NCBI GenBank assembly: GCA_946699065.1
Contig: CAMPDV010001983.1
Location: 19,801 to 83,800, forward strand
Direction of reading: 5' to 3'
Origin: Loxodes magnus
Lineage: Eukaryota; Ciliophora; Karyorelictea; Loxodida; Loxodidae
Length of the DNA stretch: 64,000 nucleotides
Shown: piece by piece, positions 16,586 to 64,000 of the stretch
Layout of the letters: each line of letters opens with the position of its first letter
How positions within the stretch are numbered: the first letter of the stretch is position 1
Notes under the pieces: generated by a model
Told to the model about the DNA's origin: nothing
The model's input: the letters and a program-made list of their open reading frames with translations, nothing else
The model's database searches: none
Made by a program: the position numbers and the translations under genes

Positions 16586-16609
16586 TTTCCAATTTATTAA
16601 TTAATTAAT

Positions 16610-19640: not shown

Positions 19641-19735
19641 TTGGCCTCGAGACATAAGATTCTTAGACCTTTGACGTTGGCTTGACTTGGTTTCGTTTAT
19701 TTTTAATACTGGAACGAAAAAGAAATAATATTGCG

Positions 19736-19800
19736 AGCTTCATCAGAGGTGGGAAATTTAAGTACCCTTAATTGACACATGTCGTCCTCTGCTTTGGTGA
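19736..19800. repeat. Structured dispersed repeat, copy 2
   Basis: Arms CAGAGG (19744-19749) and CCTCTG (19786-19791) enclose 36 nt with GGGAAATTTAAGTACCC. It lies in direct orientation about 160 bp from copy 1. The CTTCATCAGAGG start and CTGCTTTGGT end are kept while the interior has diverged, suggesting that structure is conserved. Confidence 0.6.
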
Positions 19801-19867
19801 TGCAATGAGACACAATCCTGCCATGTCCTTGGACTTCCAGCAAGTATTAAAGATTACGAGTATTCTA

Positions 19868-19988
19868 AAATTATATCAGTATTGAACATTTTTATCAGTA
19901 CTGAATAATTATACCAGTATTGTACAAGATCTACCAGTATCTGATAATTTTATCAGTAACAAACATTCTTGTCAGTATGAAACATTTT
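19868..19988. repeat. Degenerate repeat of about 22 bp (ATCAGTATTGAACAT)
   Basis: About six imperfect copies of a TTTTATCAGTATTGAACAT-like unit lie directly beside the LINE A 3' hairpins. Non-coding. Possibly derived from 3' element sequence or the insertion site. Confidence 0.65.
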
Positions 19989-19996
19989 TTTTTAAA

Positions 19997-20030
19997 GAGC
20001 TGCGCACCAATGAGAGTGCTACGCGCTCTA
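19997..20030 (-). repeat. LINE 3'-end hairpin, copy 3
   Basis: Arms AGAGC (19997-20001) and GCTCT (20026-20030), extended by GCG/CGC past a single-base bulge. It nearly duplicates the copy at 20063, separated by a TTTATTTATTTA tract. Confidence 0.75.
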
Positions 20031-20062
20031 TAATCAAATTTATTTATTTATTTAATACTGAA

Positions 20063-20096
20063 AGAGCTGCGCGCCAATGAGAGTGCTACGCGCTCT
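20063..20096 (-). repeat. LINE 3'-end hairpin, copy 2
   Basis: Arms AGAGC (20063-20067) and GCTCT (20092-20096) with the same GCG/CGC extension. A TTTATTTATTTATTTAT tract flanks it. The tandem arrangement suggests either a two-hairpin 3' end or a second, extremely truncated insertion. Confidence 0.75.
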
Positions 20097-20279
20097 ATAA
20101 TCATTTTTATTTATTTATTTATCTGTTAATTTTTATATTTTAATCTTGAGTTCTTTTACTTCATTTAGAAGTATTTCATTTTATTTTTCAACTTAAAGAG
20201 TATCTTAAATATTCATAATATTATTTACTGCTTTTAACTGGTTAGAGAATGAATTATCAAAAGTATCTTACTATGTAGA

Positions 20280-21690: not shown

Positions 21691-22148
21691 AACATATTTT
21701 AAATAAATTTACAGTAAATTATATTAAACTAAAACTACGGCTTTATAAAATTTAATTTAAACTAAGTCTAGACATGCAGCTTTTTTTAAGCAAAATTTTC
21801 AAATAATCTTTATATGTCTTCTAAATTAAAAAAATTTTAACAATACACTTTTAAGGCCTGTAATAGATTCAATATTCATAAACACTTTTTTAAACAAAGT
21901 AAAATATTAATATTTTCTCTTGTTAAATTATTAAAAAGAAAATTCGTTTGCAAGTTTGCACACAATCATCTTTAAAATAAAATGTCAAATTTAGAGAATA
22001 AATTTAAAGTAGGAAATTAAAAGGTTTAAAAAGAATATGCATTTAGAATTTAAAATTAATTTAAAGATAGTAAAAAAATTTTAAGAATAACAATACGTAA
22101 AATAAAAAAAAAAGCAGACTTAAAATTCGAGCCAGAAATATGAGTTAA
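21691..22148. other. AT-rich junction between LINE and WD40 array
   Basis: Very AT-rich, with no motif seen. It separates the family A LINE from the 3' end of the array and may include unrecognised upstream LINE sequence. Confidence 0.5.
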
Positions 22149-25100
22149 TCAAAAAAATTGATTGATAGAATTTAAAGTTTTTATTTTATATAAAAATAAA
22201 ACTAAAAAAACAGAATATACAACATTAGTGTGACCACTCATGGTCTTACAGGTACCTGTCTTGACGTCCCATAGTCTCACCGTCTCATCATCACTTCCCG
22301 ATACGATGAACTCTGAATCACTGGATATAGCCACAGCAAATACAGAACTAATGTGACCACTCATGGTCTTACAGGTACCTGTCTTGACGTCCCATAGTCT
22401 CACCGTATAATCTTAACTTCCCGATACGATGAACTCTGAATCACTGGATATAGCCACAGCATATACAGAACTAATGTGACCACTCATGGTCTTACAGGTA
22501 CCTGTCTTGACGTCCCATAGTCTCACCGTATAATCTGCACTTCCCGATACGATGAACTCTGAATCACTGGATATAGCCACAGATAATAAAGTACTAGTGT
22601 GACCACTCATGGTCTTACAGGTACCTGTCTTGACGTCTCATAGTCTCACCGTCTAATCTAAACTTACCGATACGATGAACTCTGAATCACTGGATATAGC
22701 CACAGCAAATACAGAACTAATGTGACCACTCATGGTCTTACAGGTACCTGTCTTGACGTCCCATAGTCTCACCGTCTAATCATTACTTCCCGATACGATG
22801 AACTCTGAATCACTGGATATAGCCTCAGCATATACAGAACTAATGTGACCACTCATGGTCTTACAGGTACCTGTCTTGACGTCCCATAGTCTCACCGTCT
22901 AATCATTACTTCCCGATACGATGAACTCTGAATCACTGGATATAGCCACAGCAAATACAGAACTAATGTGACCACTCATGGTCTTACAGGTACCTGTCTT
23001 GACGTCCCATAGTCTTACCGTCTAATCTGCACTTCCCGATACGATGAACTCTGAATCACTGGATATAGCCACAGCAAATACAGAACTAATGTGACCACTC
23101 ATGGTCTTACAGGTACCTGTCTTGACGTCCCATAGTCTCACCGTCTAATCATTACTTCCCGATACGATGAACTCTGAATCACTGGATATAGCCACAGCAA
23201 ATACAGAACTAATGTGACCACTCATGGTCTTACAGGTACCTGTCTTGACGTCCCATAGTCTCACCGTCTCATCATCACTTCCCGATACGATGAACTCTGA
23301 ATCACTGGATATAGCCACAGATGATACAGAACTAATGTGACCACTCATGGTCTTACAGGTACCTGTCTTGACGTCCCATAGTCTCACCGTCTAATCATTA
23401 CTTCCCGATACGATGAACTCTGAATCACTGGATATAGCCACAGCAAATACAGAACTAATGTGACCACTCATGGTCTTACAGGTACCTGTCTTGACGTCCC
23501 ATAGTCTCACCGTCTAATCTAAACTTCCCGATACGATGAACTCTGAATCACTGGATATAGCCACAGCAAATACAGAACTAATGTGACCACTCATGGTCTT
23601 ACAGGTACCTGTCTTGACGTCCCATAGTCTCACCGTCTAATCATTACTTCCCGATACGATGAACTCTGAATCACTGGATATAGCCACAGCAAATACAGAA
23701 CTAATGTGACCACTCATGGTCTTACAGGTACCTGTCTTGACGTCCCATAGTCTCACCGTCTAATCATGACTTCCCGATACGATGAACTCTGAATCACTGG
23801 ATATTGCCACAGCATATACATAACATGTGTGACCACTCATGGTCTTACAGGTACCTGTCTTGACGTCCCATAGTCTCACCGTCTAATCTAAACTTACCGA
23901 TACGATGAACTCTGAATCACTGGATATAGCCACAGCAAATACAGAACTAATGTGACCACTCATGGTCTTACAGGTACCTGTCTTGACGTCCCATAGTCTC
24001 ACCGTCTAATCTACACTTCCCGATACGATGAACTCTGAATCACTGGATATAGCCTCAGCATATACAGAACTAATGTGACCACTCATGGTCTTACAGGTAA
24101 CTGTCTTGACGTCTCATAGTCTCGCCGTCTAATCATTACTTCCCGATACGATGAACTCTGAATCACTGGATATAGCCACAGCATATACATGACTAGTGTG
24201 ACCACTCATGGTCTTACAGGTACCTGTCTTGACGTCCCATAGTCTCACCGCATAATCATGACTTCCCGATACGATGAACTCTGAATCACTGGATATAGCC
24301 ACAGCAAATACAGAACTAATGTGACCACTCATGGTCTTACAGGTACCTGTCTTGACGTCCCATAGTCTCACCGTCTAATCATTACTTCCCGATACGATGA
24401 ACTCTGAATCACTGGATATAGCCACAGCAAATACAGAACTAATGTGACCACTCATGGTCTTACAGGTACCTGTCTTGACGTCCCATAGTCTCACCGTCTC
24501 ATCATCACTTCCCGATACGATGAACTCTGAATCACTGGATATAGCCACAGATGATACAGAACTAATGTGACCACTCATGGTCTTACAGGTACCTGTCTTG
24601 ACGTCCCATAGTCTTACCGTCTAATCATTACTTCCCGATACGATGAACTCTGAATCACTGGATATAGCCACAGCAAATACAGAACTAATGTGACCACTCA
24701 TGGTCTTACAGGTACCTGTCTTGACGTCTCATAGTCTCACCGTCTAATCATGACTTCCCGATACGATGAACTCTGAATCACTGGATATGGCCACAGATGA
24801 TACTCAACTAGTGTGACCACTCATGGTCTTACAGGTACCTGTCTTGACGTCCCATAGTCTCACCGTCTAATCATTACTTCCCGATACGATGAACTCTGAA
24901 TCACTGGATATAGCCACAGCAAATACAGAACTAATGTGACCACTCATGGTCTTACAGGTACCTGTCTTGACGTCCCATAGTCTCACCGTCTCATCATCAC
25001 TTCCCGATACGATGAACTCTGAATCACTGGATATAGCCACAGATGATACAGAACTAATGTGACCACTCATGGTCTTACAGGTACCTGTCTTGACGTCCCA

Positions 25101-26110
25101 TAGTCTTACCGTCTAATCATTACTTCCCGATACGATGAACTCTGAATCACTGGATATAGCCACAGCAAATACAGAACTAATGTGACCACTCATGGTCTTA
25201 CAGGTACCTGTCTTGACGTCTCATAGTCTCACCGTCTAATCATGACTTCCCGATACGATGAACTCTGAATCACTGGATATGGCCACAGATGATACTCAAC
25301 TAGTGTGACCACTCATGGTCTTACAGGTACCTGTCTTGACGTCCCATAGTCTTACCGTCTAATCATTACTTCCCGATACGATGAACTCTGAATCACTGGA
25401 TATAGCCTCAGCATATACAGAACTAATGTGACCACTCATGGTCTTACAGGTAACTGTCTTGACGTCTCATAGTCTCGCCGTCTAATCATTACTTCCCGAT
25501 ACGATGAACTCTGAATCACTGGATATAGCCACAGATGATACATGACTAGTGTGACCACTCATGGTCTTACAGGTACCTGTCTTGACGTCCCATAGTCTCA
25601 CCGCATAATCATGACTTCCCGATACGATGAACTCTGAATCACTGGATATAGCCACAGCAAATACAGAACTAATGTGACCACTCATGGTCTTACAGGTACC
25701 TGTCTTGACGTCCTTTAGTCTCACCCTCTAATCATGACTTCCCGATACGATGAACTCTGAATCACTGGATATAGCCACAGCAAATACAGAACTAATGTGA
25801 CCACTCATGGTCTTACAGGTACCTGTCTTGACGTCCCATAGTCTCACCCTCTAATCATGACTTCCCGATACGATGAACTCTGAATCACTGGATATAGCCA
25901 CAGCAAATACATAACATGTGTGACCACTCATGGTCTTACAGGTACCTGTCTTGACGTCCCATAGTCTCACCGTCTAATCATTACTTCCCGATACGATGAA
26001 CTCTGAATCACTGGATATAGCCTCAGCATATACATAATGTGTGTGACCACTCATGGTCTTACAGGTACCTTTCTTGACGTCCTTTAGTCTCACCGTCTAA
26101 TCATTACTTC
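22149..26110 (-). CDS. WD40 array segment, 3'-terminal frame block
   Basis: One reading frame (TAG=Gln, TGA=Trp) holds from a 1-base deletion at about 26110 to the array end, about 31 blades. The last blade breaks off after G-H-T-N-V-V-Y-S-V at about 22211, and about 20 unrelated residues follow to TGA at 22151-22149. There is no diverged closing blade like blades 6-7 of the intact gene, so the C-terminus looks truncated. Whether it is expressed is unknown. Confidence 0.5.
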
Positions 26111-27831
26111 CGATACGATGAACTCTGAATCACTGGATATAGCCACAGCAAATACAGAACTAATGTGACCACTCATGGTCTTACAGGTACCTGTCTTGAC
26201 GTCCCATAGTCTTACCGTCTAATCATTACTTCCCGATACGATGAACTCTGAATCACTGGATATAGCCACAGCAAATACAGAACTAATGTGACCACTCATG
26301 GTCTTACAGGTACCTGTCTTGACGTCTCATAGTCTCACCGTCTAATCATGACTTCCCGATACGATGAACTCTGAATCACTGGATATGGCCACAGATGATA
26401 CTCAACTAGTGTGACCACTCATGGTCTTACAGGTACCTGTCTTGACGTCCCATAGTCTCACCGTCTAATCATTACTTCCCGATACGATGAACTCTGAATC
26501 ACTGGATATAGCCACAGCAAATACAGAACTAATGTGACCACTCATGGTCTTACAGGTACCTGTCTTGACGTCCCATAGTCTCACCGTCTCATCATCACTT
26601 CCCGATACGATGAACTCTGAATCACTGGATATAGCCACAGATGATACAGAACTAATGTGACCACTCATGGTCTTACAGGTACCTGTCTTGACGTCCCATA
26701 GTCTTACCGTCTAATCATTACTTCCCGATACGATGAACTCTGAATCACTGGATATAGCCACAGCAAATACAGAACTAATGTGACCACTCATGGTCTTACA
26801 GGTACCTGTCTTGACGTCTCATAGTCTCACCGTCTAATCATGACTTCCCGATACGATGAACTCTGAATCACTGGATATGGCCACAGATGATACTCAACTA
26901 GTGTGACCACTCATGGTCTTACAGGTACCTGTCTTGACGTCCCATAGTCTTACCGTCTAATCATTACTTCCCGATACGATGAACTCTGAATCACTGGATA
27001 TAGCCTCAGCATATACAGAACTAATGTGACCACTCATGGTCTTACAGGTAACTGTCTTGACGTCTCATAGTCTCGCCGTCTAATCATTACTTCCCGATAC
27101 GATGAACTCTGAATCACTGGATATAGCCACAGATGATACATGACTAGTGTGACCACTCATGGTCTTACAGGTACCTGTCTTGACGTCCCATAGTCTCACC
27201 GCATAATCATGACTTCCCGATACGATGAACTCTGAATCACTGGATATAGCCACAGCAAATACAGAACTAATGTGACCACTCATGGTCTTACAGGTACCTG
27301 TCTTGACGTCCCATAGTCTCACCGTCTAATCATGACTTCCCGATACGATGAACTCTGAATCACTGGATATAGCCACAGCAAATACAGAACTAATGTGACC
27401 ACTCATGGTCTTACAGGTACCTGTCTTGACGTCCCATAGTCTCACCGTCTAATCATTACTTCCCGATACGATGAACTCTGAATCACTGGATATAGCCACA
27501 GATCATACATAACATGTGTGACCACTCATGGTCTTACAGGTACCTGTCTTGACGTCCCATAGTCTCACCGTCTAATCATTACTTCCCGATACGATGAACT
27601 CTGAATCACTGGATATAGCCACAGATCATACATAACATGTGTGACCACTCATGGTCTTACAGGTACCTGTCTTGACGTCCCATAGTCTCACCGTCTAATC
27701 ATTACTTCCCGATACGATGAACTCTGAATCACTGGATATAGCCTCAGCATATACATAATGTGTGTGACCACTCATGGTCTTACAGGTACCTTTCTTGACG
27801 TCCTTTAGTCTCACCGTCTAATCATTACTTC
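26111..27831 (-). CDS. WD40 array segment, frame block
   Basis: About 14 blades in one frame between identical 1-base deletions (ACTTCCGAT for ACTTCCCGAT) at about 26110 and 27831. Both deletions sit in the same multi-unit context, an A-E-A blade followed by an R-L-K-D blade, so the frameshift was copied by segmental duplication. Part of a broken or reservoir ORF. Confidence 0.4.
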
Positions 27832-30800
27832 CGATACGATGAACTCTGAATCACTGGATATAGCCACAGCATATACAGAACTAATGTGACCACTCATGGT
27901 CTTACAGGTACCTGTCTTGACGTCCCATAGTCTCACCGTATAATCATGACTTCCCGATACGATGAACTCTGAATCACTGGATATAGCCACAGATGATACA
28001 TGACTAATGTGACCACTCATGGTCTTACAGGTACCTGTCTTGACGTCCCATAGTCTTACCGTCTAATCTGCACTTCCCGATACGATGAACTCTGAATCAC
28101 TGGATATAGCCACAGATGATACAACACTAGTGTGACCACTCATGGTCTTACAGGTACCTGTCTTGACGTCCCATAGTCTCACCGTCTAATCTACACTTCC
28201 CGATACGATGAACTCTGAATCACTGGATATAGCCTCAGCATATACAGAACTAATGTGACCACTCATGGTCTTACAGGTAACTGTCTTGACGTCTCATAGT
28301 CTCGCCGTCTAATCATGACTTCCCGATACGATGAACTCTGAATCACTGGATATAGCCACAGATGATACATGACTAGTGTGACCACTCATGGTCTTACAGG
28401 TACCTGTCTTGACGTCCCATAGTCTCACCGCATAATCATGACTTCCCGATACGATGAACTCTGAATCACTGGATATAGCCACAGCAAATACAGAACTAAT
28501 GTGACCACTCATGGTCTTACAGGTACCTGTCTTGACGTCCCATAGTCTCACCGTCTAATCATTACTTCCCGATACGATGAACTCTGAATCACTGGATATA
28601 GCCACAGCAAATACAGAACTAATGTGACCACTCATGGTCTTACAGGTACCTGTCTTGACGTCCCATAGTCTCACCGTCTCATCATCACTTCCCGATACGA
28701 TGAACTCTGAATCACTGGATATAGCCACAGATGATACAGAACTAATGTGACCACTCATGGTCTTACAGGTACCTGTCTTGACGTCCCATAGTCTTACCGT
28801 CTAATCATTACTTCCCGATACGATGAACTCTGAATCACTGGATATAGCCACAGCAAATACAGAACTAATGTGACCACTCATGGTCTTACAGGTACCTGTC
28901 TTGACGTCTCATAGTCTCACCGTCTAATCTAAACTTACCGATACGATGAACTCTGAATCACTGGATATAGCCTCAGCATATACAGAACTAATGTGACCAC
29001 TCATGGTCTTACAGGTACCTGTCTTGACGTCCCATAGTCTCACCGTCTAATCATTACTTCCCGATACGATGAACTCTGAATCACTGGATATAGCCACAGC
29101 AAATACAGAACTAATGTGACCACTCATGGTCTTACAGGTACCTGTCTTGACGTCCCATAGTCTCACCGTCTAATCATCACTTCCCGATACGATGAACTCT
29201 GAATCACTGGATATAGCCACAGATCATACATAACATGTGTGACCACTCATGGTCTTACAGGTACCTGTCTTGACGTCCCATAGTCTCACCGTCTAATCAT
29301 TACTTACCGATACGATGAACTCTGAATCACTGGATATAGCCACAGCATATACAGAACTAATGTGACCACTCATGGTCTTACAGGTACCTGTCTTGACGTC
29401 CCATAGTCTCACCGTATTATCTAAACTTACCGATACGATGAACTCTGAATCACTGGATATAGCCACATCATATACAGAACTAATGTGACCACTCATGGTC
29501 TTACAGGTACCTGTCTTGACGTCCCATAGTCTCACCGCATAATCATGACTTCCCGATACGATGAACTCTGAATCACTGGATATAGCCACAGCAAATACAG
29601 AACTAATGTGACCACTCATGGTCTTACAGGTACCTGTCTTGACGTCCCATAGTCTCACCGCATAATCATGACTTCCCGATACGATGAACTCTGAATCACT
29701 GGATATAGCCACAGCAAATACAGAACTAATGTGACCACTCATGGTCTTACAGGTACCTGTCTTGACGTCCCATAGTCTTACCGTCTAATCTGCACTTCCC
29801 GATACGATGAACTCTGAATCACTGGATATAGCCACAGCAAATACAGAACTAATGTGACCACTCATGGTCTTACAGGTACCTGTCTTGACGTCCTTTAGTC
29901 TCACCGTCTAATCATGACTTCCCGATACGATGAACTCTGAATCACTGGATATAGCCACAGCAAATACAGAACTAATGTGACCACTCATGGTCTTACAGGT
30001 ACCTGTCTTGACGTCCCATAGTCTCACCGTCTAATCATGACTTCCCGATACGATGAACTCTGAATCACTGGATATTGCCACAGCATATACAGAACTAATG
30101 TGACCACTCATGGTCTTACAGGTACCTGTCTTGACGTCCCATAGTCTCACCGTCTAATCATTACTTCCCGATACGATGAACTCTGAATCACTGGATATTG
30201 CCACAGCATATACAGAACTAATGTGACCACTCATGGTCTTACAGGTACCTGTCTTGACGTCCCATAGTCTCACCGTCTAATCATTACTTCCCGATACGAT
30301 GAACTCTGAATCACTGGATATAGCCACAGATGATACAGAACTAATGTGACCACTCATGGTCTTACAGGTACCTGTCTTGACGTCCCATAGTCTCACCGTC
30401 TAATCATGACTTCCCGATACGATGAACTCTGAATCACTGGATATAGCCACAGCAAATACAGAACTAATGTGACCACTCATGGTCTTACAGGTACCTGTCT
30501 TGACGTCCCATAGTCTCACCGTCTAATCATTACTTCCCGATACGATGAACTCTGAATCACTGGATATAGCCACAGCAAATACAGAACTAATGTGACCACT
30601 CATGGTCTTACAGGTACCTGTCTTGACGTCCTTTAGTCTCACCGTCTAATCATGACTTCCCGATACGATGAACTCTGAATCACTGGATATAGCCACAGCA
30701 AATACAGAACTAATGTGACCACTCATGGTCTTACAGGTACCTGTCTTGACGTCCCATAGTCTCACCGTCTAATCATTACTTCCCGATACGATGAACTCTG

Positions 30801-31028
30801 AATCACTGGATATAGCCACAGATGATACATGACTAGTGTGACCACTCATGGTCTTACAGGTACCTGTCTTGACGTCCCATAGTCTCACCGCATAATCATG
30901 ACTTCCCGATACGATGAACTCTGAATCACTGGATATAGCCTCAGCATATACATAATGTGTGTGACCACTCATGGTCTTACAGGTACCTTTCTTGACGTCC
31001 TTTAGTCTCACCGTCTAATCATTACTTC
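27832..31028 (-). CDS. WD40 array segment, frame block
   Basis: About 26 blades in one frame, bounded by the same duplicated 1-base deletion at about 27831 and 31028. It includes three consecutive frames open even in the standard code (29293-29742), where the TAG position is replaced by Tyr or Asn codons. Confidence 0.4.
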
Positions 31029-34000
31029 CGATACGATGAACTCTGAATCACTGGATATAGCCACAGATGATACAGAACTAATGTGACCACTCATGGTCTT
31101 ACAGGTACCTGTCTTGACGTCCCATAGTCTTACCGTCTAATCTGCACTTCCCGATACGATGAACTCTGAATCACTGGATATAGCCACAGCAAATACAGAA
31201 CTAATGTGACCACTCATGGTCTTACAGGTACCTGTCTTGACGTCCTTTAGTCTCACCGTCTAATCATGACTTCCCGATACGATGAACTCTGAATCACTGG
31301 ATATAGCCACAGCAAATACAGAACTAATGTGACCACTCATGGTCTTACAGGTACCTGTCTTGACGTCCCATAGTCTCACCGTCTAATCATTACTTCCCGA
31401 TACGATGAACTCTGAATCACTGGATATAGCCACAGCATATACAGAACTAATGTGACCACTCATGGTCTTACAGGTACCTGTCTTGACGTCCCATAGTCTC
31501 ACCGTATTATCTAAACTTACCGATACGATGAACTCTGAATCACTGGATATAGCCACAGCAAATACAGAACTAATGTGACCACTCATGGTCTTACAGGTAC
31601 CTGTCTTGACGTCCCATAGTCTCACCGTCTAATCATTACTTCCCGATACGATGAACTCTGAATCACTGGATATAGCCTCAGCATATACAGAACTAATGTG
31701 ACCACTCATGGTCTTACAGGTAACTGTCTTGACGTCTCATAGTCTCGCCGTCTAATCATTACTTCCCGATACGATGAACTCTGAATCACTGGATATAGCC
31801 ACAGATGATACATGACTAGTGTGACCACTCATGGTCTTACAGGTACCTGTCTTGACGTCCCATAGTCTCACCGCATAATCATGACTTCCCGATACGATGA
31901 ACTCTGAATCACTGGATATAGCCACAGCAAATACAGAACTAATGTGACCACTCATGGTCTTACAGGTACCTGTCTTGACGTCCCATAGTCTCACCGTCTA
32001 ATCATTACTTCCCGATACGATGAACTCTGAATCACTGGATATAGCCACAGCAAATACAGAACTAATGTGACCACTCATGGTCTTACAGGTACCTGTCTTG
32101 ACGTCCCATAGTCTCACCGTCTAATCATGACTTCCCGATACGATGAACTCTGAATCACTGGATATAGCCACAGATCATACATAACATGTGTGACCACTCA
32201 TGGTCTTACAGGTACCTGTCTTGACGTCCCATAGTCTCACCGTCTAATCTAAACTTACCGATACGATGAACTCTGAATCACTGGATATAGCCACAGCAAA
32301 TACAGAACTAATGTGACCACTCATGGTCTTACAGGTACCTGTCTTGACGTCCCATAGTCTCACCGTCTAATCATTACTTCCCGATACGATGAACTCTGAA
32401 TCACTGGATATAGCCTCAGCATATACAGAACTAATGTGACCACTCATGGTCTTACAGGTAACTGTCTTGACGTCTCATAGTCTCGCCGTCTAATCATTAC
32501 TTCCCGATACGATGAACTCTGAATCACTGGATATAGCCACAGCAAATACAGAACTAATGTGACCACTCATGGTCTTACAGGTACCTGTCTTGACGTCCTT
32601 TAGTCTCACCGTCTAATCATGACTTCCCGATACGATGAACTCTGAATCACTGGATATAGCCACAGCAAATACAGAACTAATGTGACCACTCATGGTCTTA
32701 CAGGTACCTGTCTTGACGTCCCATAGTCTCACCGTCTAATCATTACTTCCCGATACGATGAACTCTGAATCACTGGATATAGCCACATCATATACAGAAC
32801 TAATGTGACCACTCATGGTCTTACAGGTACCTGTCTTGACGTCCCATAGTCTCACCGTCTAATCATTACTTCCCGATACGATGAACTCTGAATCACTGGA
32901 TATAGCCACAGCAAATACAGAACTAATGTGACCACTCATGGTCTTACAGGTACCTGTCTTGACGTCCCATAGTCTCACCGTCTAATCATGACTTCCCGAT
33001 ACGATGAACTCTGAATCACTGGATATAGCCACAGATGATACATGACTAATGTGACCACTCATGGTCTTACAGGTACCTGTCTTGACGTCTCATAGTCTCA
33101 CCGTCTAATCTAAACTTACCGATACGATGAACTCTGAATCACTGGATATAGCCACAGCAAATACAGAACTAATGTGACCACTCATGGTCTTACAGGTACA
33201 TGTCTTGACGTCCCATAGTCTCACCGTCTAATCATTACTTCCCGATACGATGAACTCTGAATCACTGGATATAGCCTCAGCATATACAGAACTAATGTGA
33301 CCACTCATGGTCTTACAGGTACCTGTCTTGACGTCCCATAGTCTCACCGTCTAATCATTACTTCCCGATACGATGAACTCTGAATCACTGGATATAGCCA
33401 CAGATGATACATGACTAGTGTGACCACTCATGGTCTTACAGGTACCTGTCTTGACGTCCCATAGTCTCACCGCATAATCATGACTTCCCGATACGATGAA
33501 CTCTGAATCACTGGATATAGCCACAGCAAATACAGAACTAATGTGACCACTCATGGTCTTACAGGTACCTGTCTTGACGTCCCATAGTCTCACCGTCTAA
33601 TCATTACTTCCCGATACGATGAACTCTGAATCACTGGATATAGCCACAGCAAATACAGAACTAATGTGACCACTCATGGTCTTACAGGTACCTGTCTTGA
33701 CGTCCCATAGTCTCACCGTCTAATCATTACTTCCCGATACGATGAACTCTGAATCACTGGATATAGCCACAGCAAATACAGAACTAATGTGACCACTCAT
33801 GGTCTTACAGGTACCTGTCTTGACGTCCCATAGTCTCACCGTCTAATCATTACTTCCCGATACGATGAACTCTGAATCACTGGATATAGCCACAGCAAAT
33901 ACAGAACTAATGTGACCACTCATGGTCTTACAGGTACCTTTCTTGACGTCCTTTAGTCTCACCGTCTAATCATGACTTCCCGATACGATGAACTCTGAAT

Positions 34001-51003: not shown

Positions 51004-54000
51004 TAATGTGACCACTCATGGTCTTACAGGTACCTGTCTTGACGTCCCATAGTCTCACCGTATAATCTAAACTTACCGATACGATGAACTCTGAATCACT
51101 GGATATAGCCACAGCATATACAGAACTAATGTGACCACTCATGGTCTTACAGGTACCTGTCTTGACGTCCCATAGTCTCACCGTCTAATCTAAACTTACC
51201 GATACGATGAACTCTGAATCACTGGATATAGTCACAGCATATACAGAACTAATGTGACCACTCATGGTCTTACAGGTACCTGTCTTGACGTCCCATAGTC
51301 TTACCGTCTAATCATTACTTCCCGATATGATGAACTCTGAATCACTGGATATAGCCACAGATGATACATAACTAATGTGACCACTCATGGTCTTACAGGT
51401 ACCTGTCTTGACGTCCCATAGTCTCACCGTCTCATCATCACTTACCGATACGATGAACTCTGAATCACTGGATATAGCCACAGCATATACAGAACTAATG
51501 TGACCACTCATGGTCTTACAGGTACCTGTCTTGACGTCCCATAGTCTCACCGTCTAATCTAAACTTCCCGATACGATGAACTCTGAATCACTGGATATAG
51601 CCACAGCAAATACAGAACTAATGTGACCACTCATGGTCTTACAGGTACCTGTCTTGACGTCTCATAGTCTCACCGTCTAATCATTACTTCCCGATACGAT
51701 GAACTCTGAATCACTGGATATAGCCACAGCAAATACAGAACTAATGTGACCACTCATGGTCTTACAGGTACCTGTCTTGACGTCCCATAGTCTCACCGTA
51801 TCATCATTACTTCCCGATACGATGAACTCTGAATCACTGGATATAGCCACAGCATATACATAACTAATGTGACCACTCATGGTCTTACAGGTACCTGTCT
51901 TGACGTCCCATAGTCTCACCGTATAATCATTACTTCCCGATACGATGAACTCTGAATCACTGGATATAGCCACAGATGATACATGACTAATGTGACCACT
52001 CATGGTCTTACAGGTACCTGTCTTGACGTCCCATAGTCTCACCGCATAATCATGACTTCCCGATACGATGAACTCTGAATCACTGGATATAGCCACAGCA
52101 AATACAGAACTAATGTGACCACTCATGGTCTTACAGGTACCTGTCTTGACGTCCCATAGTCTCACCGTATAATCATTACTTCCCGATACGATGAACTCTG
52201 AATCACTGGATATAGCCACAGATGATACATGACTAATGTGACCACTCATGGTCTTACAGGTACCTGTCTTGACGTCCCATAGTCTCACCGCATAATCATG
52301 ACTTCCCGATACGATGAACTCTGAATCACTGGATATAGCCACAGCAAATACAGAACTAATGTGACCACTCATGGTCTTACAGGTACCTGTCTTGACGTCC
52401 CATAGTCTCACCGTCTAATCTGCACTTCCCGATACGATGAACTCTGAATCACTGGATATAGCCACAGCATATACAGAACTAATGTGACCACTCATGGTCT
52501 TACAGGTACCTGTCTTGACGTCCCATAGTCTCACCGCATAATCATGACTTCCCGATACGATGAACTCTGAATCACTGGATATAGCCACAGCAAATACAGA
52601 ACTAATGTGACCACTCATGGTCTTACAGGTACCTGTCTTGACGTCCTTTAGTCTCACCCTCTAATCATGACTTCCCGATACGATGAACTCTGAATCACTG
52701 GATATAGCCACAGCAAATACAGAACTAATGTGACCACTCATGGTCTTACAGGTACCTGTCTTGACGTCCCATAGTCTCACCGCATAATCATGACTTCCCG
52801 ATACGATGAACTCTGAATCACTGGATATAGCCACAGCAAATACAGAACTAATTTGACCACTCATGGTCTTACAGGTACCTGTCTTGACGTCCCATAGTCT
52901 CACCGTCTAATCATTACTTCCCGATACGATGAACTCTGAATCACTGGATATAGCCACAGCAAATACAGAACTAATGTGACCACTCATGGTCTTACAGGTA
53001 CCTGTCTTGACGTCCCATAGTCTCACCGTATAATCATTACTTCCCGATACGATGAACTCTGAATCACTGGATATAGCCACAGCAAATACAGAACTAATTT
53101 GACCACTCATGGTCTTACAGGTACCTGTCTTGACGTCCCATAGTCTCACCGTCTCATCATCACTTCCCGATACGATGAACTCTGAATCACTGGATATTGC
53201 CACAGCATATACAGAACTAATGTGACCACTCATGGTCTTACAGGTACCTGTCTTGACGTCCCATAGTCTCACCGTCTAATCTAAACTTCCCGATACGATG
53301 AACTCTGAATCACTGGATATAGCCACAGCAAATACAGAACTAATGTGACCACTCATGGTCTTACAGGTACCTGTCTTGACGTCTCATAGTCTCACCGTCT
53401 AATCATTACTTCCCGATACGATGAACTCTGAATCACTGGATATAGCCACAGCAAATACAGAACTAATGTGACCACTCATGGTCTTACAGGTACCTGTCTT
53501 GACGTCCTTTAGTCTCACCGTATAATCATTACTTCCCGATACGATGAACTCTGAATCACTGGATATAGCCACAGCATATACATAATGTGTGTGACCACTC
53601 ATGGTCTTACAGGTACCTGTCTTGACGTCCCATAGTCTCACCGTATAATCATTACTTCCCGATACGATGAACTCTGAATCACTGGATATAGCCACAGATG
53701 ATACATGACTAATGTGACCACTCATGGTCTTACAGGTACCTGTCTTGACGTCCCATAGTCTCACCGCATAATCATGACTTCCCGATACGATGAACTCTGA
53801 ATCACTGGATATAGCCACAGCAAATACAGAACTAATGTGACCACTCATGGTCTTACAGGTACCTGTCTTGACGTCCCATAGTCTCACCGTCTAATCTGCA
53901 CTTCCCGATACGATGAACTCTGAATCACTGGATATAGCCACAGCATATACAGAACTAATGTGACCACTCATGGTCTTACAGGTACCTGTCTTGACGTCCC

Positions 54001-54395
54001 ATAGTCTCACCGCATAATCATGACTTCCCGATACGATGAACTCTGAATCACTGGATATAGCCACAGCAAATACAGAACTAATGTGACCACTCATGGTCTT
54101 ACAGGTACCTGTCTTGACGTCCTTTAGTCTCACCCTCTAATCATGACTTCCCGATACGATGAACTCTGAATCACTGGATATAGCCACAGCAAATACAGAA
54201 CTAATGTGACCACTCATGGTCTTACAGGTACCTGTCTTGACGTCCCATAGTCTCACCGTATAATCATTACTTCCCGATACGATGAACTCTGAATCACTGG
54301 ATATAGCCACAGCAAATACAGAACTAATTTGACCACTCATGGTCTTACAGGTACCTGTCTTGACGTCCCATAGTCTCACCGTCTAATCTGCACTT
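51004..54395 (-). CDS. WD40 array segment, frame block
   Basis: About 27 blades in one frame. It includes the longest run open even under the standard code (51677-52411, 244 codons), because consecutive blades carry Tyr, Asp or Glu codons instead of TAG at the variable turn position. Repeats of its 162-codon subblock occur at 46.3, 48.8 and 60.8 kb. Confidence 0.45.
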
Positions 54396-57300
54396 CCGAT
54401 ACGATGAACTCTGAATCACTGGATATAGCCACAGCAAATACAGAACTAATGTGACCACTCATGGTCTTACAGGTACCTGTCTTGACGTCCCATAGTCTCA
54501 CCGTCTAATCATGACTTCCCGATATGATGAACTCTGAATCACTGGATATAGCCACAGCAAATACAGAACTAATGTGACCACTCATGGTCTTACAGGTACC
54601 TGTCTTGACGTCCCATAGTCTCACCGTCTAATCTAAACTTACCGATACGATGAACTCTGAATCACTGGATATAGCCACAGATGATACATGACAAGTGTGA
54701 CCACTCATGGTCTTACAGGTACCTGTCTTGACGTCCCATAGTCTCACCGTCTAATCTGCACTTCCGATACGATGAACTCTGAATCACTGGATATAGCCAC
54801 AGCATATACAGAACTAATGTGACCACTCATGGTCTTACAGGTACCTGTCTTGACGTCCCATAGTCTCACCGTCTCATCATCACTTCCCGATACGATGAAC
54901 TCTGAATCACTGGATATAGCCACAGCAAATACAGAACTAATGTGACCACTCATGGTCTTACAGGTACCTGTCTTGACGTCCCATAGTCTCACCGTCTCAT
55001 CATCACTTCCCGATACGATGAACTCTGAATCACTGGATATAGCCACAGCAAATACAGAACTAATGTGACCACTCATGGTCTTACAGGTACCTGTCTTGAC
55101 GTCCCATAGTCTCACCGTCTAATCATGACTTCCCGATACGATGAACTCTGAATCACTGGATATAGCCACAGCAAATACAGAACTAATGTGACCACTCGTG
55201 GTCTTACAGGTACCTGTCTTGACGTCCCATAGTCTCACCGTCTAATCATGACTTCCCGATACGATGAACTCTGAATCACTGGATATAGCCACAGCAAATA
55301 CAGAACTAATGTGACCACTCATGGTCTTACAGGTACCTGTCTTGACGTCTCATAGTCTCACCGTCTAATCTAAACTTACCGATACGATGAACTCTGAATC
55401 ACTGGATATAGCCACAGCAAATACAGAACTAATGTGACCACTCATGGTCTTACAGGTACATGTCTTGACGTCCCATAGTCTCACCGTCTAATCATTACTT
55501 CCCGATACGATGAACTCTGAATCACTGGATATAGCCTCAGCATATACAGAACTAATGTGACCACTCATGGTCTTACAGGTACCTGTCTTGACGTCCCATA
55601 GTCTCACCGTCTAATCATTACTTCCCGATACGATGAACTCTGAATCACTGGATATTGCCACAGCATATACAGAACTAATGTGACCACTCATGGTCTTACA
55701 GGTACCTGTCTTGACGTCCCATAGTCTCACCGTCTAATCATTACTTCCCGATATGATGAACTCTGAATCACTGGATATAGCCACAGCAAATACAGAACTA
55801 ATGTGACCACTCATGGTCTTACAGGTACCTGTCTTGACGTCTCATAGTCTCACCGTCTAATCTAAACTTACCGATACGATGAACTCTGAATCACTGGATA
55901 TAGCCACAGCAAATACAGAACTAATGTGACCACTCATGGTCTTACAGGTACCTGTCTTGACGTCCCATAGTCTCACCGTCTAATCATTACTTCCCGATAC
56001 GATGAACTCTGAATCACTGGATATAGCCACAGCAAATACAGAACTAATGTGACCACTCATGGTCTTACAGGTACCTGTCTTGACGTCTCATAGTCTCGCC
56101 GTCTAATCATTACTTCCCGATACGATGAACTCTGAATCACTGGATATAGCCACAGATGATACATGACTAGTGTGACCACTCATGGTCTTACAGGTACCTG
56201 TCTTGACGTCCCATAGTCTCACCGCATAATCATGACTTCCCGATACGATGAACTCTGAATCACTGGATATAGCCACAGCAAATACAGAACTAATGTGACC
56301 ACTCATGGTCTTACAGGTACCTGTCTTGACGTCCCATAGTCTCACCGTCTAATCATGACTTCCCGATACGATGAACTCTGAATCACTGGATATAGCCACA
56401 GCAAATACAGAACTAATGTGACCACTCATGGTCTTACAGGTACCTGTCTTGACGTCCCATAGTCTCACCGTCTAATCATGACTTCCCGATACGATGAACT
56501 CTGAATCACTGGATATAGCCACAGATGATACATGACAAGTGTGACCACTCATGGTCTTACAGGTACCTGTCTTGACGTCCCATAGTCTCACCGTCTAATC
56601 TGCACTTCCGATACGATGAACTCTGAATCACTGGATATAGCCACAGCAAATACAGAACTAATGTGACCACTCATGGTCTTACAGGTACCTGTCTTGACGT
56701 CCCATAGTCTCACCGTCTAATCATGACTTCCCGATATGATGAACTCTGAATCACTGGATATAGCCACAGCAAATACAGAACTAATGTGACCACTCATGGT
56801 CTTACAGGTACCTGTCTTGACGTCCCATAGTCTCACCGTCTAATCATGACTTCCCGATACGATGAACTCTGAATCACTGGATATAGCCACAGCAAATACA
56901 GAACTAATGTGACCACTCGTGGTCTTACAGGTACCTGTCTTGACGTCCCATAGTCTCACCGTCTAATCATGACTTCCCGATACGATGAACTCTGAATCAC
57001 TGGATATAGCCACAGATGATACATGACTAATGTGACCACTCATGGTCTTACAGGTACCTGTCTTGACGTCTCATAGTCTCACCGTCTAATCTAAACTTAC
57101 CGATACGATGAACTCTGAATCACTGGATATAGCCACAGCAAATACAGAACTAATGTGACCACTCATGGTCTTACAGGTACATGTCTTGACGTCCCATAGT
57201 CTCACCGTCTAATCATTACTTCCCGATACGATGAACTCTGAATCACTGGATATAGCCTCAGCATATACAGAACTAATGTGACCACTCATGGTCTTACAGG

Positions 57301-58206
57301 TACCTGTCTTGACGTCCCATAGTCTCACCGTCTAATCATTACTTCCCGATACGATGAACTCTGAATCACTGGATATTGCCACAGCATATACAGAACTAAT
57401 GTGACCACTCATGGTCTTACAGGTACCTGTCTTGACGTCCCATAGTCTCACCGTCTAATCATTACTTCCCGATATGATGAACTCTGAATCACTGGATATA
57501 GCCACAGCAAATACAGAACTAATGTGACCACTCATGGTCTTACAGGTACCTGTCTTGACGTCTCATAGTCTCACCGTCTAATCTAAACTTACCGATACGA
57601 TGAACTCTGAATCACTGGATATAGCCACAGATGAAACATGACTAGTGTGACCACTCATGGTCTTACAGGTACCTGTCTTGACGTCCCATAGTCTCACCGT
57701 CTAATCATTACTTCCCGATACGATGAACTCTGAATCACTGGATATAGCCACAGATGATACATGACAAGTGTGACCACTCATGGTCTTACAGGTACCTGTC
57801 TTGACGTCCCATAGTCTCACCGTCTAATCTGCACTTCCGATACGATGAACTCTGAATCACTGGATATAGCCACAGCAAATACAGAACTAATGTGACCACT
57901 CATGGTCTTACAGGTACCTGTCTTGACGTCCCATAGTCTCACCGTCTAATCATGACTTCCCGATATGATGAACTCTGAATCACTGGATATAGCCACAGCA
58001 AATACAGAACTAATGTGACCACTCATGGTCTTACAGGTACCTGTCTTGACGTCCCATAGTCTCACCGTCTAATCTAAACTTACCGATACGATGAACTCTG
58101 AATCACTGGATATAGCCACAGATGATACATGACAAGTGTGACCACTCATGGTCTTACAGGTACCTGTCTTGACGTCCCATAGTCTCACCGTCTAATCTGC
58201 ACTTCC
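54396..58206 (-). pseudogene. WD40 array segment broken by five copies of one deletion
   Basis: The 1-base deletion in GCACTTCCGAT recurs at about 54396, 54764, 56608, 57837 and 58205. A rare ACTCGTGG variant at 55195, 56917 and 58639 is spaced exactly 1722 bp (14 units), marking a higher-order repeat that overlaps and extends past this block. The frame therefore changes repeatedly. The frameshift arose once and was then amplified with its block, which argues against coding constraint here. Confidence 0.6.
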
Positions 58207-61200
58207 GATACGATGAACTCTGAATCACTGGATATAGCCACAGCATATACAGAACTAATGTGACCACTCATGGTCTTACAGGTACCTGTCTTGACGTCCC
58301 ATAGTCTCACCGTCTCATCATCACTTCCCGATACGATGAACTCTGAATCACTGGATATAGCCACAGCAAATACAGAACTAATGTGACCACTCATGGTCTT
58401 ACAGGTACCTGTCTTGACGTCCCATAGTCTCACCGCATAATCATGACTTCCCGATACGATGAACTCTGAATCACTGGATATAGCCACAGCAAATACAGAA
58501 CTAATGTGACCACTCATGGTCTTACAGGTACCTGTCTTGACGTCCCATAGTCTCACCGTCTAATCATGACTTCCCGATACGATGAACTCTGAATCACTGG
58601 ATATAGCCACAGCAAATACAGAACTAATGTGACCACTCGTGGTCTTACAGGTACCTGTCTTGACGTCCCATAGTCTCACCGTCTAATCATGACTTCCCGA
58701 TACGATGAACTCTGAATCACTGGATATAGCCACAGATGATACATGACTAATGTGACCACTCATGGTCTTACAGGTACCTGTCTTGACGTCTCATAGTCTC
58801 ACCGTCTAATCTAAACTTACCGATACGATGAACTCTGAATCACTGGATATAGCCACAGCAAATACAGAACTAATGTGACCACTCATGGTCTTACAGGTAC
58901 ATGTCTTGACGTCCCATAGTCTCACCGTCTAATCATTACTTCCCGATACGATGAACTCTGAATCACTGGATATAGCCTCAGCATATACAGAACTAATGTG
59001 ACCACTCATGGTCTTACAGGTACCTGTCTTGACGTCCCATAGTCTCACCGTCTAATCATTACTTCCCGATACGATGAACTCTGAATCACTGGATATTGCC
59101 ACAGCATATACAGAACTAATGTGACCACTCATGGTCTTACAGGTACCTGTCTTGACGTCCCATAGTCTCACCGTCTAATCATTACTTCCCGATATGATGA
59201 ACTCTGAATCACTGGATATAGCCACAGCAAATACAGAACTAATGTGACCACTCATGGTCTTACAGGTACCTGTCTTGACGTCTCATAGTCTCACCGTCTA
59301 ATCTAAACTTACCGATACGATGAACTCTGAATCACTGGATATAGCCACAGCAAATACAGAACTAATGTGACCACTCATGGTCTTACAGGTACCTGTCTTG
59401 ACGTCCCATAGTCTCACCGTCTAATCATTACTTCCCGATACGATGAACTCTGAATCACTGGATATAGCCACAGCAAATACAGAACTAATGTGACCACTCA
59501 TGGTCTTACAGGTACCTGTCTTGACGTCTCATAGTCTCGCCGTCTAATCATTACTTCCCGATACGATGAACTCTGAATCACTGGATATAGCCACAGATGA
59601 TACATGACTAGTGTGACCACTCATGGTCTTACAGGTACCTGTCTTGACGTCCCATAGTCTCACCGCATAATCATGACTTCCCGATACGATGAACTCTGAA
59701 TCACTGGATATAGCCACAGCAAATACAGAACTAATGTGACCACTCATGGTCTTACAGGTACCTGTCTTGACGTCCCATAGTCTCACCGTCTAATCATGAC
59801 TTCCCGATACGATGAACTCTGAATCACTGGATATAGCCACAGCAAATACAGAACTAATGTGACCACTCATGGTCTTACAGGTACCTGTCTTGACGTCCCA
59901 TAGTCTCACCGTCTAATCATGACTTCCCGATACGATGAACTCTGAATCACTGGATATAGCCTCAGCATATACAGAACTAATGTGACCACTCATGGTCTTA
60001 CAGGTACCTGTCTTGACGTCCCATAGTCTCACCGTCTAATCATGACTTCCCGATACGATGAACTCTGAATCACTGGATATAGCCACAGCATATACAGAAC
60101 TAATGTGACCACTCATGGTCTTACAGGTACCTGTCTTGACGTCCCATAGTCTCACCGTCTAATCATTACTTCCCGATACGATGAACTCTGAATCACTGGA
60201 TATAGCCACAGCATATACATAATGTGTGTGACCACTCATGGTCTTACAGGTACCTGTCTTGACGTCCTTTAGTCTCACCGTCTAATCATGACTTCCCGAT
60301 ACGATGAACTCTGAATCACTGGATATAGCCACAGCATATACATAATGTGTGTGACCACTCATGGTCTTACAGGTACCTGTCTTGACGTCCCATAGTCTCA
60401 CCGTCTAATCATTACTTCCCGATACGATGAACTCTGAATCACTGGATATAGCCACAGCAAATACAGAACTAATGTGACCACTCATGGTCTTACAGGTACC
60501 TGTCTTGACGTCCCATAGTCTCACCGTCTAATCATGACTTCCCGATACGATGAACTCTGAATCACTGGATATAGCCACAGATCATACATAACATGTGTGA
60601 CCACTCATGGTCTTACAGGTACCTGTCTTGACGTCCCATAGTCTCACCGTCTAATCTAAACTTACCGATACGATGAACTCTGAATCACTGGATATAGCCA
60701 CAGCAAATACAGAACTAATGTGACCACTCATGGTCTTACAGGTACCTGTCTTGACGTCTCATAGTCTCACCGTCTAATCATTACTTCCCGATACGATGAA
60801 CTCTGAATCACTGGATATTGCCACAGCATATACAGAACTAATGTGACCACTCATGGTCTTACAGGTACCTGTCTTGACGTCCTTTAGTCTCACCGTATAA
60901 TCATTACTTCCCGATACGATGAACTCTGAATCACTGGATATAGCCACAGCATATACATAATGTGTGTGACCACTCATGGTCTTACAGGTACCTGTCTTGA
61001 CGTCCCATAGTCTCACCGTATAATCATTACTTCCCGATACGATGAACTCTGAATCACTGGATATAGCCACAGATGATACATGACTAATGTGACCACTCAT
61101 GGTCTTACAGGTACCTGTCTTGACGTCCCATAGTCTCACCGCATAATCATGACTTCCCGATACGATGAACTCTGAATCACTGGATATAGCCACAGCAAAT

Positions 61201-62550
61201 ACAGAACTAATGTGACCACTCATGGTCTTACAGGTACCTGTCTTGACGTCCCATAGTCTCACCGTCTAATCTGCACTTCCCGATACGATGAACTCTGAAT
61301 CACTGGATATAGCCACAGCAAATACAGAACTAATGTGACCACTCATGGTCTTACAGGTACCTGTCTTGACGTCCCATAGTCTCACCGCATAATCATGACT
61401 TCCCGATACGATGAACTCTGAATCACTGGATATAGCCACAGCAAATACAGAACTAATGTGACCACTCATGGTCTTACAGGTACCTGTCTTGACGTCCTTT
61501 AGTCTCACCCTCTAATCATGACTTCCCGATACGATGAACTCTGAATCACTGGATATAGCCACAGCAAATACAGAACTAATGTGACCACTCATGGTCTTAC
61601 AGGTACCTGTCTTGACGTCCCATAGTCTCACCGTATAATCATTACTTCCCGATACGATGAACTCTGAATCACTGGATATAGCCACAGCAAATACAGAACT
61701 AATTTGACCACTCATGGTCTTACAGGTACCTGTCTTGACGTCCCATAGTCTCACCGTCTAATCATTACTTCCCGATACGATGAACTCTGAATCACTGGAT
61801 ATAGCCACAGCAAATACAGAACTAATGTGACCACTCATGGTCTTACAGGTACCTGTCTTGACGTCCCATAGTCTCACCGCATAATCATGACTTCCCGATA
61901 CGATGAACTCTGAATCACTGGATATAGCCACAGCAAATACAGAACTAATGTGACCACTCATGGTCTTACAGGTACCTGTCTTGACGTCCCATAGTCTCAC
62001 CGTCTAATCTGCACTTCCCGATACGATGAACTCTGAATCACTGGATATAGCCACAGCAAATACAGAACTAATGTGACCACTCATGGTCTTACAGGTACCT
62101 GTCTTGACGTCCCATAGTCTCACCGTCTCATCATCACTTCCCGATACGATGAACTCTGAATCACTGGATATTGCCACAGCATATACAGAACTAATGTGAC
62201 CACTCATGGTCTTACAGGTACCTGTCTTGACGTCCCATAGTCTCACCGTCTAATCATGACTTACCGATACGATGAACTCTGAATCACTGGATATAGCCAC
62301 AGCATATACAGAACTAATGTGACCACTCATGGTCTTACAGGTACCTGTCTTGACGTCCCATAGTCTCACCGTCTCATCATTACTTCCCGATACGATGAAC
62401 TCTGAATCACTGGATATTGCCTCAGCATATACAGAACTAATGTGACCACTCATGGTCTTACAGGTACCTGTCTTGACGTCCCATAGTCTCAACGTCGAAT
62501 CTGCACTTCCCGATACGATGAACTCTGAATCACTGGATATAGCCACAGCA
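58207..62550 (-). CDS. WD40 array segment, frame block
   Basis: About 35 blades in one frame. It contains a close copy of the 46.27-46.75 kb subblock at 60774-61262, including its G-H-T-H-Y-V and R-L-K-D blades, so long-range segmental duplication connects these parts of the array. Confidence 0.45.
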
Positions 62551-64000
62551 TCATACATAACTAATGTGACCACTCATGGTCTTACAGGTACCTGTCTTGA
62601 CGTCCCATAGTCTCACCGTATAATCTAAACTTACCGATACGATGAACTCTGAATCACTGGATATAGCCACAGCATATACAGAACTAATGTGACCACTCAT
62701 GGTCTTACAGGTACCTGTCTTGACGTCTCATAGTCTCACCGTCTAATCATTACTTCCCGATACGATGAACTCTGAATCACTGGATATAGCCACAGCATAT
62801 ACAGAACTAATGTGACCACTCATGGTCTTACAGGTACCTGTCTTGACGTCCCATAGTCTCACCGTATAATCATTACTTCCCGATACGATGAACTCTGAAT
62901 CACTGGATATAGCCACAGATGATACATAATGTGTGTGACCACTCATGGTCTTACAGGTACCTGTCTTGACGTCCCATAGTCTCACCGTCTAATCTATTAC
63001 TTACCGATACGATGAACTCTGAATCACTGGATATAGCCACAGCATATACAGAACTAATGTGACCACTCATGGTCTTACAGGTACCTGTCTTGACGTCCCA
63101 TAGTCTCACCGTCTAATCTAAACTTACCGATACGATGAACTCTGAATCACTGGATATAGCCACAGCATATACATGACGTGTGTGACCACTCATGGTCTTA
63201 CAGGTACCTGTCTTGACGTCCCATAGTCTCACCGTATAATCTAAACTTCCCGATACGATGAACTCTGAATCACTGGATATAGCCACAGCATATACATAAC
63301 ATGTGTGACCACTCATGGTCTTACAGGTACCTGTCTTGACGTCCCATAGTCTCACCGTCTCATCATCACTTCCCGATACGATGAACTCTGAATCACTGGA
63401 TATTGCCACAGCATATACAGAACTAATGTGACCACTCATGGTCTTACAGGTACCTGTCTTGGACGTCCCATAGTCTCAACGTCGAATCTGCACTTCCCGA
63501 TACGATGAACTCTGAATCACTGGATATAGCCACAGCATATACATAATTTGTGTGACCACTCATGGTCTTACAGGTACCTGTCTTGACGTCCCATAGTCTC
63601 ACCGTCTCATCATCACTTCCCGATACGATGAACTCTGAATCACTGGATATAGCCACAGCATATACATATTGTGTGACCACTCATGGTCTTACAGGTACCT
63701 GTCTTGACGTCCCATAGTCTCACCGTCTCATCATCACTTCCCGATACGATGAACTCTGAATCACTGGATATTGCCACAGCATATACAGAACTAATGTGAC
63801 CACTCATGGTCTTACAGGTACCTGTCTTGACGTCCCATAGTCTCACCGTCTAATCATGACTTCCCGATACGATGAACTCTGAATCACTGGATATAGCCAC
63901 AGCATATACAGAACTAATGTGACCACTCATGGTCTTACAGGTACCTGTCTTGACGTCCCATAGTCTCACCGTCTCATCATCACTTCCCGATACGATGAAC
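62551..64000 (-). pseudogene. WD40 array segment with four indels, continues past window
   Basis: Single-base changes near 62551 (+1), 62994 (+1), 63462 (+1, TTGGACGTCC) and 63668 (-1) disrupt the frame within 12 blades. Blades here are more varied in the GH loop (T-C-Y, T-R-H, T-N-Y) than in the middle of the array and resemble those of the intact gene. Higher diversity towards an array edge is typical of arrays homogenised by unequal exchange, which suggests the 5' edge may not be far away. Indels could also be sequencing errors. Confidence 0.5.

Follow-up and report, generated by a model that had tools for sequence, protein, structure and literature searches.

In the macronuclear assembly of the ciliate Loxodes magnus (GCA_946699065.1) we analysed a stretch of 64,000 nucleotides (the window, positions 19801-83800 of the 83,800-bp contig CAMPDV010001983.1, hereafter C1983), which carries a long tandem array of 123-bp units, each corresponding to one blade of a WD40 propeller. 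We read this array as a blade satellite evolving in concert with a family of recognition-like genes, and assign to this reading a probability of about 0.7. Sequence comparison establishes that the array unit corresponds to the canonical blade of the neighbouring seven-blade WD40 genes, and that the framework of this blade is homogenised within and between genes, with diversity found at the predicted surface codons 18, 20, 36 and 38 (plus 17 and 21). The ingredients of such a blade satellite are known, their combination is new, and its size is unusual judging by the assembly. A described counterpart of a large WD40-blade array was not found in the open-licence papers of PubMed Central (PMC), nor was any paper treating Loxodes together with WD40 found in that literature.

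Tandem Repeats Finder (TRF) reported a period of 123 and 339.7 copies with 94% matches at window positions 22229-64000, and the blastn alignment with a gene tail begins at 22210. Pfam WD40 (PF00400) matched 20 stretches within a single 835-aa frame of the array. These results agree with the first-pass annotation, made from the sequence alone, which had described about 340 head-to-tail WD40 blades on one strand. Cutting at a fixed minus-strand anchor gave 339 complete units (324 of 123 bp, 10 of 122 bp, four of 124 bp and one of 121 bp), among which 121 are distinct. The minus-strand translation of the unit is LWDVKTGTCKTMSGH[I/T]SSV[F/Y]AVAISSDSEFIVSGS[N/H/L/D/A]D[Q/Y/E]TVR. The G+C content is 0.44 within the array versus 0.25-0.31 outside, and a weak higher-order structure is present, unit identity at lags 14 and 28 being 8.0% versus 2.3% expected. 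The array had also been described as still running at the window edge; it does reach this edge with its 5' side, but C1983 itself ends there.

The WD40 signature claimed for the repeat is preserved under a ciliate code and lost under the standard one, which we rejected because TAG interrupts most units (codon 38 is TAG, read as Q, in 233 of 324 units). In-frame TGA occurs in 53 of the 324. The nearby gene (P0001) contains 88 TAA/TAG codons at which the frame continues, read as Q, and in each of the seven gene tails that were read with TGA as stop the conserved W site is a TGA (RI[TGA]N). One tail position is occupied by TGA in some genes and by TGG in others (GAR[TGA]NN versus GARWYS). Since TAA/TAG continue the frame and TGA occupies W sites of WD40 blades, the code is, on this codon evidence, the karyorelict nuclear code (table 27) with TAA/TAG as Q and internal TGA as W. 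Table 6 with TGA as stop (that of Paramecium or Tetrahymena) was rejected, as TGA stands at W sites conserved across paralogues.

Codon periodicity, which had been thought to persist throughout, does not: 15 of 339 units shift the frame by 1-2 bp insertions or deletions, and the longest unbroken in-frame run comprises 142 units. At its 3' end (~22.2 kb) the array stops mid-blade, with A+T-rich DNA beyond and no gene tail there. Rightward extension towards the 5' end, as proposed in the first-pass annotation, halts with C1983 at the window edge; contig C994, however, carries 62 kb of the same unit (507 anchors, positions 89 to 62,266), and its 5' end (62.3 kb) begins mid-blade after A-rich DNA, with no head of the gene family. 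The array of C1503, which belongs to a second blade family with a 126-bp unit, likewise halts abruptly in A+T-rich DNA. In C994 one G-deletion unit is present in 18 copies and its undeleted form in none. Contig C1606, in which blades extend throughout the 110,000 bp fetched (895 anchors), holds a G-deletion unit in 11 copies, again with no undeleted form, and a 121-bp unit in 12 copies. Because deleted copies occur without undeleted twins, frameshift units were amplified in C994 and C1606, where sequencing error is an unlikely source of the shifts; it may be the source of the window G deletions. One giant WD40 gene spanning the window array, as the original description might be read, is rejected on the indels, the amplified frameshifts and the ends seen, which have neither head nor tail; a single open frame with start and tail was not found. 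What was found is a long homogenised tandem array, present at many loci, in which the frame is not maintained, i.e., a satellite. At the sequence level these features indicate that window-type arrays are non-coding as wholes.

The whole assembly (705,730,643 bp, 7,843 contigs) was searched by exact word matches with reversed-pattern controls. The counts are 387,771 for a 25-bp word from the core of the blade, 411,635 for a 20-bp word in which codon 16 is threonine (T16) and 3,361 for its counterpart with isoleucine (I16), each control giving 0. The window array, in which codon 16 is ATT in 246 of 297 clean units, is a member of the minor, I16, branch. Together the T16 and I16 words amount to 414,996 blades, which at 123 bp each make ~51 Mb, or 7.2% of the assembly, these copy and length totals being assembly figures which may be inflated. 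The published assembly (PacBio HiFi, Falcon) comprises 706 Mbp with 231 Mbp of tandem repeats (PMC11441545), ~22% of which the blades would represent. The exceptional size originally claimed stands as far as counterparts described in the open-licence papers go, yet was understated in view of C1606, C994 and ~415,000 blades genome-wide. The 126-bp family gave 3,725 exact core words and varies, by eye, at corresponding places. Viral contigs searched with a 24-bp unit word gave 0 matches.

For the comparison with genes we used 34 canonical blades, all distinct, from 11 gene tails (chosen within 16 mismatches of the reference; 44 gene blades were found within 30) and 1,625 array units scanned on three contigs, 393 of them distinct. 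Diversity and neutrality were assessed on 1,322 units with exact 123-bp neighbours on both sides. Among the 41 codons of the gene blades diversity is highest at 36, 38, 20 and 18, followed by 17 and 21; the four leading codons form two pairs around V19 and D37, spaced by 18 codons, and account for 52.7% of the non-synonymous differences among gene blades and for 53.8% of those among distinct array units. The ratio of non-synonymous to synonymous divergence (pN/pS) at these four codons is 2.8 (gene bootstrap 2.38-3.43) and at the six jointly 4.0; that of the framework is 0.73 (0.44-1.62, an interval including 1). Amino-acid diversity per codon in the gene blades correlates with that in the arrays over all 41 codons (Pearson 0.91, Spearman 0.65). 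The framework codons, a set from which codon 16 was omitted, are identical in the gene and array consensus; the coding origin proposed for the repeat from the outset is supported. The two consensuses differ only at codons 16, 18, 20, 36 and 38 (window and C1606) or 18 and 38 (C994).

The framework of canonical blades diverges between genes by a pS of 0.044 versus 0.353 in the C-terminal blades of the same genes (10 of the 11, L038 omitted), and hence the canonical blades evolve in concert; between genes and arrays the framework pS is 0.033-0.042. Outside the variable codons the array alleles comprise 40 non-synonymous and 18 synonymous changes, which fits neutrality (p = 0.37). The blocks of codons 17-21 and 36-38 are variously combined (window, 51 of 306 possible pairings; C1606, 76 of 320; C994, 96 of 672), which indicates that units are shuffled internally. 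Six-codon haplotypes number 31 in genes and 158 in arrays, 6 being common to both. The distance gradient along the arrays was examined and gave no clear trend.

Several observations weigh against our reading, or narrow it. Only 11 of ~120 loci were read for the blade tests. The gene blades, like the arrays, are compatible with neutrality once the variable codons are set aside (25:12, p = 0.35), so this test fails to separate genes from arrays. Rarefied distances from gene blades are 5.44 to other genes and 5.70, 6.51 and 6.50 to C994, C1606 and C1983, respectively. The tails of at least two genes, L031 and L035, shift frame within one blade, the frame of L031 being restored at the next, and some loci may therefore be pseudogenes; the two cases are perhaps pseudogenes or perhaps traces of misaligned exchange. 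In the window there are five distinct G-deletion units, each with undeleted copies, and because of these twins some of the deletions could be consensus errors. The window array may not be representative of the bulk, considering the 3,361 I16 words against 411,635 of T16. Moreover, the G-deletion word occurs only 2,335 times genome-wide versus 387,771 core words, eight sampled blades of contig C375 are in frame, and contig C4 keeps phase over 115 unit lengths following four 2-bp shifts; since frameshift words are rare in the bulk and C375 and C4 are in frame, the term non-coding is confined to window-type arrays.

As to how a satellite of this kind might have formed, we infer that unequal exchange amplified blades into arrays, that arrays and genes draw on a common conversion pool, and that the window array would be a non-coding, partly decayed branch. 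Two further steps are the least certain: the gene family may act like the fungal HNWD recognition proteins and bind its partners with the propeller's variable top face, and blade variants might pass from the arrays back into genes.

The rival to which we give most weight, still as a tentative one, is a plain selfish or structural satellite, a single chance amplification serving heterochromatin or no role at all, whose likeness to the genes would reflect descent alone. The neutral allele spectrum of the arrays, the presence of another large satellite, of 80 bp, on C1983 and the 231 Mbp of tandem repeats in the assembly (PMC11441545) are all in accord with it. Descent alone, however, fails on the shared framework unless all blades were replaced recently, because old paralogues (65-79% identical to the window gene in their N-terminal parts, with the C-terminal pS given above) still share the array framework at a pS of ~0.04. 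The synonymous-site framework common to arrays and genes would be accommodated by an archive, in which arrays are working donors for the blades of expressed genes, these being renewed by gene conversion in the germline or the soma, a proposal we regard as possible but rather unlikely. One blade of the family (blade 4 of L038) has 577 exact copies genome-wide, although it was chosen because an array match was already known. For blades 2-4 of the window gene the nearest matches (96-97%) lie on 14 other contigs, all distinct from those that carry the 120 loci, but blade 3 has no exact copy except itself among ~415,000 blades. Because arrays vastly outnumber genes, near matches to arrays are expected by number alone; one of 34 gene blades recurs unchanged among the units of the three arrays, and the rarefied distances show no preference for arrays. 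Among the matches listed, the array lies upstream of a same-strand family gene on five of five contigs having both within 300 kb (C1983, C295, C351, C54 and C40), and on C121 and C6 opposite-strand blades lie more than 0.6 Mb from the family gene. The fullest version of the archive, in which ~400,000 blades (~7% of the assembly) would be exchanged with at least 120 candidate receptor genes beside satellite-flanked contig ends, yielding a combinatorial repertoire at the four surface positions of the fungal HET-D/HET-E, is a shade more doubtful again.

Much less probable is that the arrays, or at least the in-frame ones of the bulk, code for WD40 proteins of enormous size, the window array being a decayed one. 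Open frames of 2,899 aa (C6957) and 2,099 aa (C119) in the 126-bp family, the in-frame sample of C375, the phase kept in C4 and the window run of 142 units speak for such proteins; in-frame unit lengths, though, are expected of any satellite with a coding unit, frameshifts were amplified in C994 and C1606, and the ends seen on C994 (headless), in the window (tailless) and on C1503 (A+T-rich DNA) are not those of genes. Least probable of all is an assembly artefact, in which the assembler would have inflated an array of modest length. The assembly measures 706 Mbp versus ~261 Mbp estimated by k-mers, its authors suspect misassembly of low-complexity and tandem repeats (PMC11441545), and the head-to-head array of contig C52 has an inversion near 1,049-1,050 kb. 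Against inflation stand the assembly from HiFi reads (PMC11441545), the 121 distinct units in the window, the 393 among 1,625 units on three contigs, and the unique junctions at two array ends. As regards the concern already raised in the first-pass annotation, it is unlikely that unrelated loci were collapsed into this array, but the total lengths should not be relied upon, given the misassembly suspected in the same paper (PMC11441545).

The features of the window are collected in the table below. The nearby gene runs on the array's strand from 11977 to ~9.4 kb, 10 kb downstream of the array, with an uncertain 3' end and, by eye, a likely short intron. Its blades 2-4 are canonical and 5-7 diverging, three in-frame TGA codons being read as W. 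AlphaFold2 run on the single sequence of the WD40 domain gave a mean predicted local distance difference test score (pLDDT) of 92.1 and a predicted template modelling score (pTM) of 0.90, and the predicted structure matched WD40 propellers in the PDB, the best being 5yzv_B (TM 0.89, normalised by query length). P0001 has a Cys-rich RING-like start and, by eye, a Q-rich coiled-coil-like middle; Pfam reports Pentapeptide (E 5.8e-12) and zf-RING_2 (E 0.015, under its cut-off). In the spacer between gene and array a YADD-like string near 21 kb was considered by eye as a trace of a retrotransposon, but Pfam found nothing at 12.5-22.2 kb on both strands, and none is claimed.

Table. Features of the window (positions in the 64,000-nt stretch; strand given where assigned).
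Feature	Position	Strand	Evidence
123-bp (41-codon) WD40-blade tandem array	22210..64000	-	TRF, blastn of gene tail, unit lengths, codon table
Spacer, gene to array	12500..22209		Six-frame Pfam: no domain
N-terminal part of gene (P0001): RING-like start, middle, pentapeptides, first blade	10367..11977	-	Pfam, eye
Seven-blade WD40 domain of nearby gene	9542..10456	-	TGA=W translation, AlphaFold2, PDB matches
3' flank of gene, common to C295 family locus	7381..9158		blastn, TRF
80-bp A+T-rich satellite, reaching the other contig end leftward	1..7199		TRF

Searched against its own genome, a 537-aa N-terminal query scored at least 81 full-length places, self included, the others being 65-79% identical; as there were 6,380 first-look candidates, 81 is a lower bound. 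The gene itself was listed at 88%, probably because Q codons taken as stops were scored as mismatches. An 18-bp word from the last canonical blade was found at 82 places (control 0), 39 of them on contigs absent from the N-terminal list, and the union of both searches puts the RING-like/pentapeptide/seven-blade WD40 family at no fewer than 120 loci, some of which may be allelic (C43/C6165 and C713/C6887 score equally). Segment 1-240 of contig C295 corresponds to window 7381-7620 at 97.5%, and 1900-3130 to 9158-10381 at 91.6%. A+T-rich short tandem repeats occupy 8203-9167 of the 3' flank (TRF). Downstream of the gene C1983 continues with the flank shared with C295 and then with the 80-bp satellite to its left end, with 90.8 copies in the window and 249 to the left of it (C1983:1-19800). 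For the 82 tail places of the 18-bp word, the contig start is no more than 10 kb away in 28 of 56 on the reverse strand and in 1 of 26 on the forward strand (Fisher p 2e-5). Family genes thus direct their 3' ends at contig breaks, which plausibly consist of the 80-bp satellite. Telomeres could not be identified by the Loxodes authors (PMC11441545).

Other blade-bearing contigs deserve separate mention. The 126-bp family (HADSVLSIAISPDQKWIVSASYDKTIKVWDFQTGSCLRTFTG) occurs on C1503, C119, C9 and C6957, its longest open frame having 2,899 aa, and its array on C119 comes within 340 bp of the contig end. On C994 a WD40 gene from another subfamily, which likewise has TGA where W is expected, lies on the same strand at ~63.9-64.7 kb, ~1.7 kb upstream of the array 5' end. 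On C52 (989612-1073001) the blades that carry the frameshift are in forward orientation as far as ~1,048.5 kb and in reverse orientation from 1,050.0 kb, a layout representing either a head-to-head array or a palindromic misassembly.

Should the blade satellite be what we propose, a major eukaryotic satellite would be built of a protein interaction unit with diverse ligand-facing codons and an otherwise homogenised sequence, and satellite DNA turnover would be linked with diversifying recognition genes, subjects that are usually separate. It would also make this ciliate a candidate for possessing a large recognition repertoire. The archive, if true, would mean that recognition by shuffled repeats was invented independently, its donor pool being stored as satellite DNA. 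Even the dullest reading accounts for part of the tandem-repeat bulk of L. magnus, described in the assembly paper as low-complexity repeats (PMC11441545). The questions raised are whether arrays feed variation into genes, and whether fungi and ciliates independently reached the same variable WD40 face.

Coding-repeat satellites, megasatellites and higher-order satellites resemble the blade arrays in their large tandem units, homogenisation and higher-order periodicity. Unlike theirs, the Loxodes unit is a recognisable protein blade whose variation at ligand-facing codons is common to a live-looking gene family. The trypanosome variant surface glycoprotein (VSG) arrays are an antigen archive, which the Loxodes arrays, with many silent units near contig-end family genes, would resemble if the archive reading holds; switching, an expression site and a telomere are not demonstrated for the Loxodes arrays. 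In Paramecium tetraurelia, where WD40/TPR tandem repeats were described, all tandem repeats make 1.39 Mb according to the part of the source consulted (PMC5405496), versus ~51 Mb of one blade family here. Recently amplified beta-propellers are alike in that blades were amplified nearly unchanged from one unit (PMC9218822, PMC6805158); near-identical consecutive WD40 blades there peak at 7 and 14 within proteins (PMC9218822, in whose main text the word 'ciliate' is absent), whereas in Loxodes hundreds to thousands stand outside a gene frame.

The closest counterpart of the gene family is provided by the NOD-like receptors (NLRs) HNWD, HET-D and HET-E of Podospora anserina. The ciliate gene differs from them in having RING-like and pentapeptide parts in place of NACHT/HET, neither of which was found in Pfam scans of P0001 (best 25 of 33 families) or of the N-terminal 508 aa (9 families, E up to 10). 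The ciliate family counts at least 120 loci versus 10 in the fungal one, for which giant arrays are not reported in the portions of these sources available to us. The fungal genes likewise possess near-identical WD40 repeats with concerted evolution among paralogues (PMC1805685, PMC2873952, PMC12222747). Positive selection in HET-D/HET-E acts on codons 7, 9 and 25, 27, which lie to either side of 8 and 26 on the propeller's top face (PMC1805685). Both systems thus show two diversifying codon pairs 18 apart, those of the ciliate, 18, 20 and 36, 38, being set around V19 and D37, a correspondence drawn from spacing and flanking residues, without alignment to HET-E.

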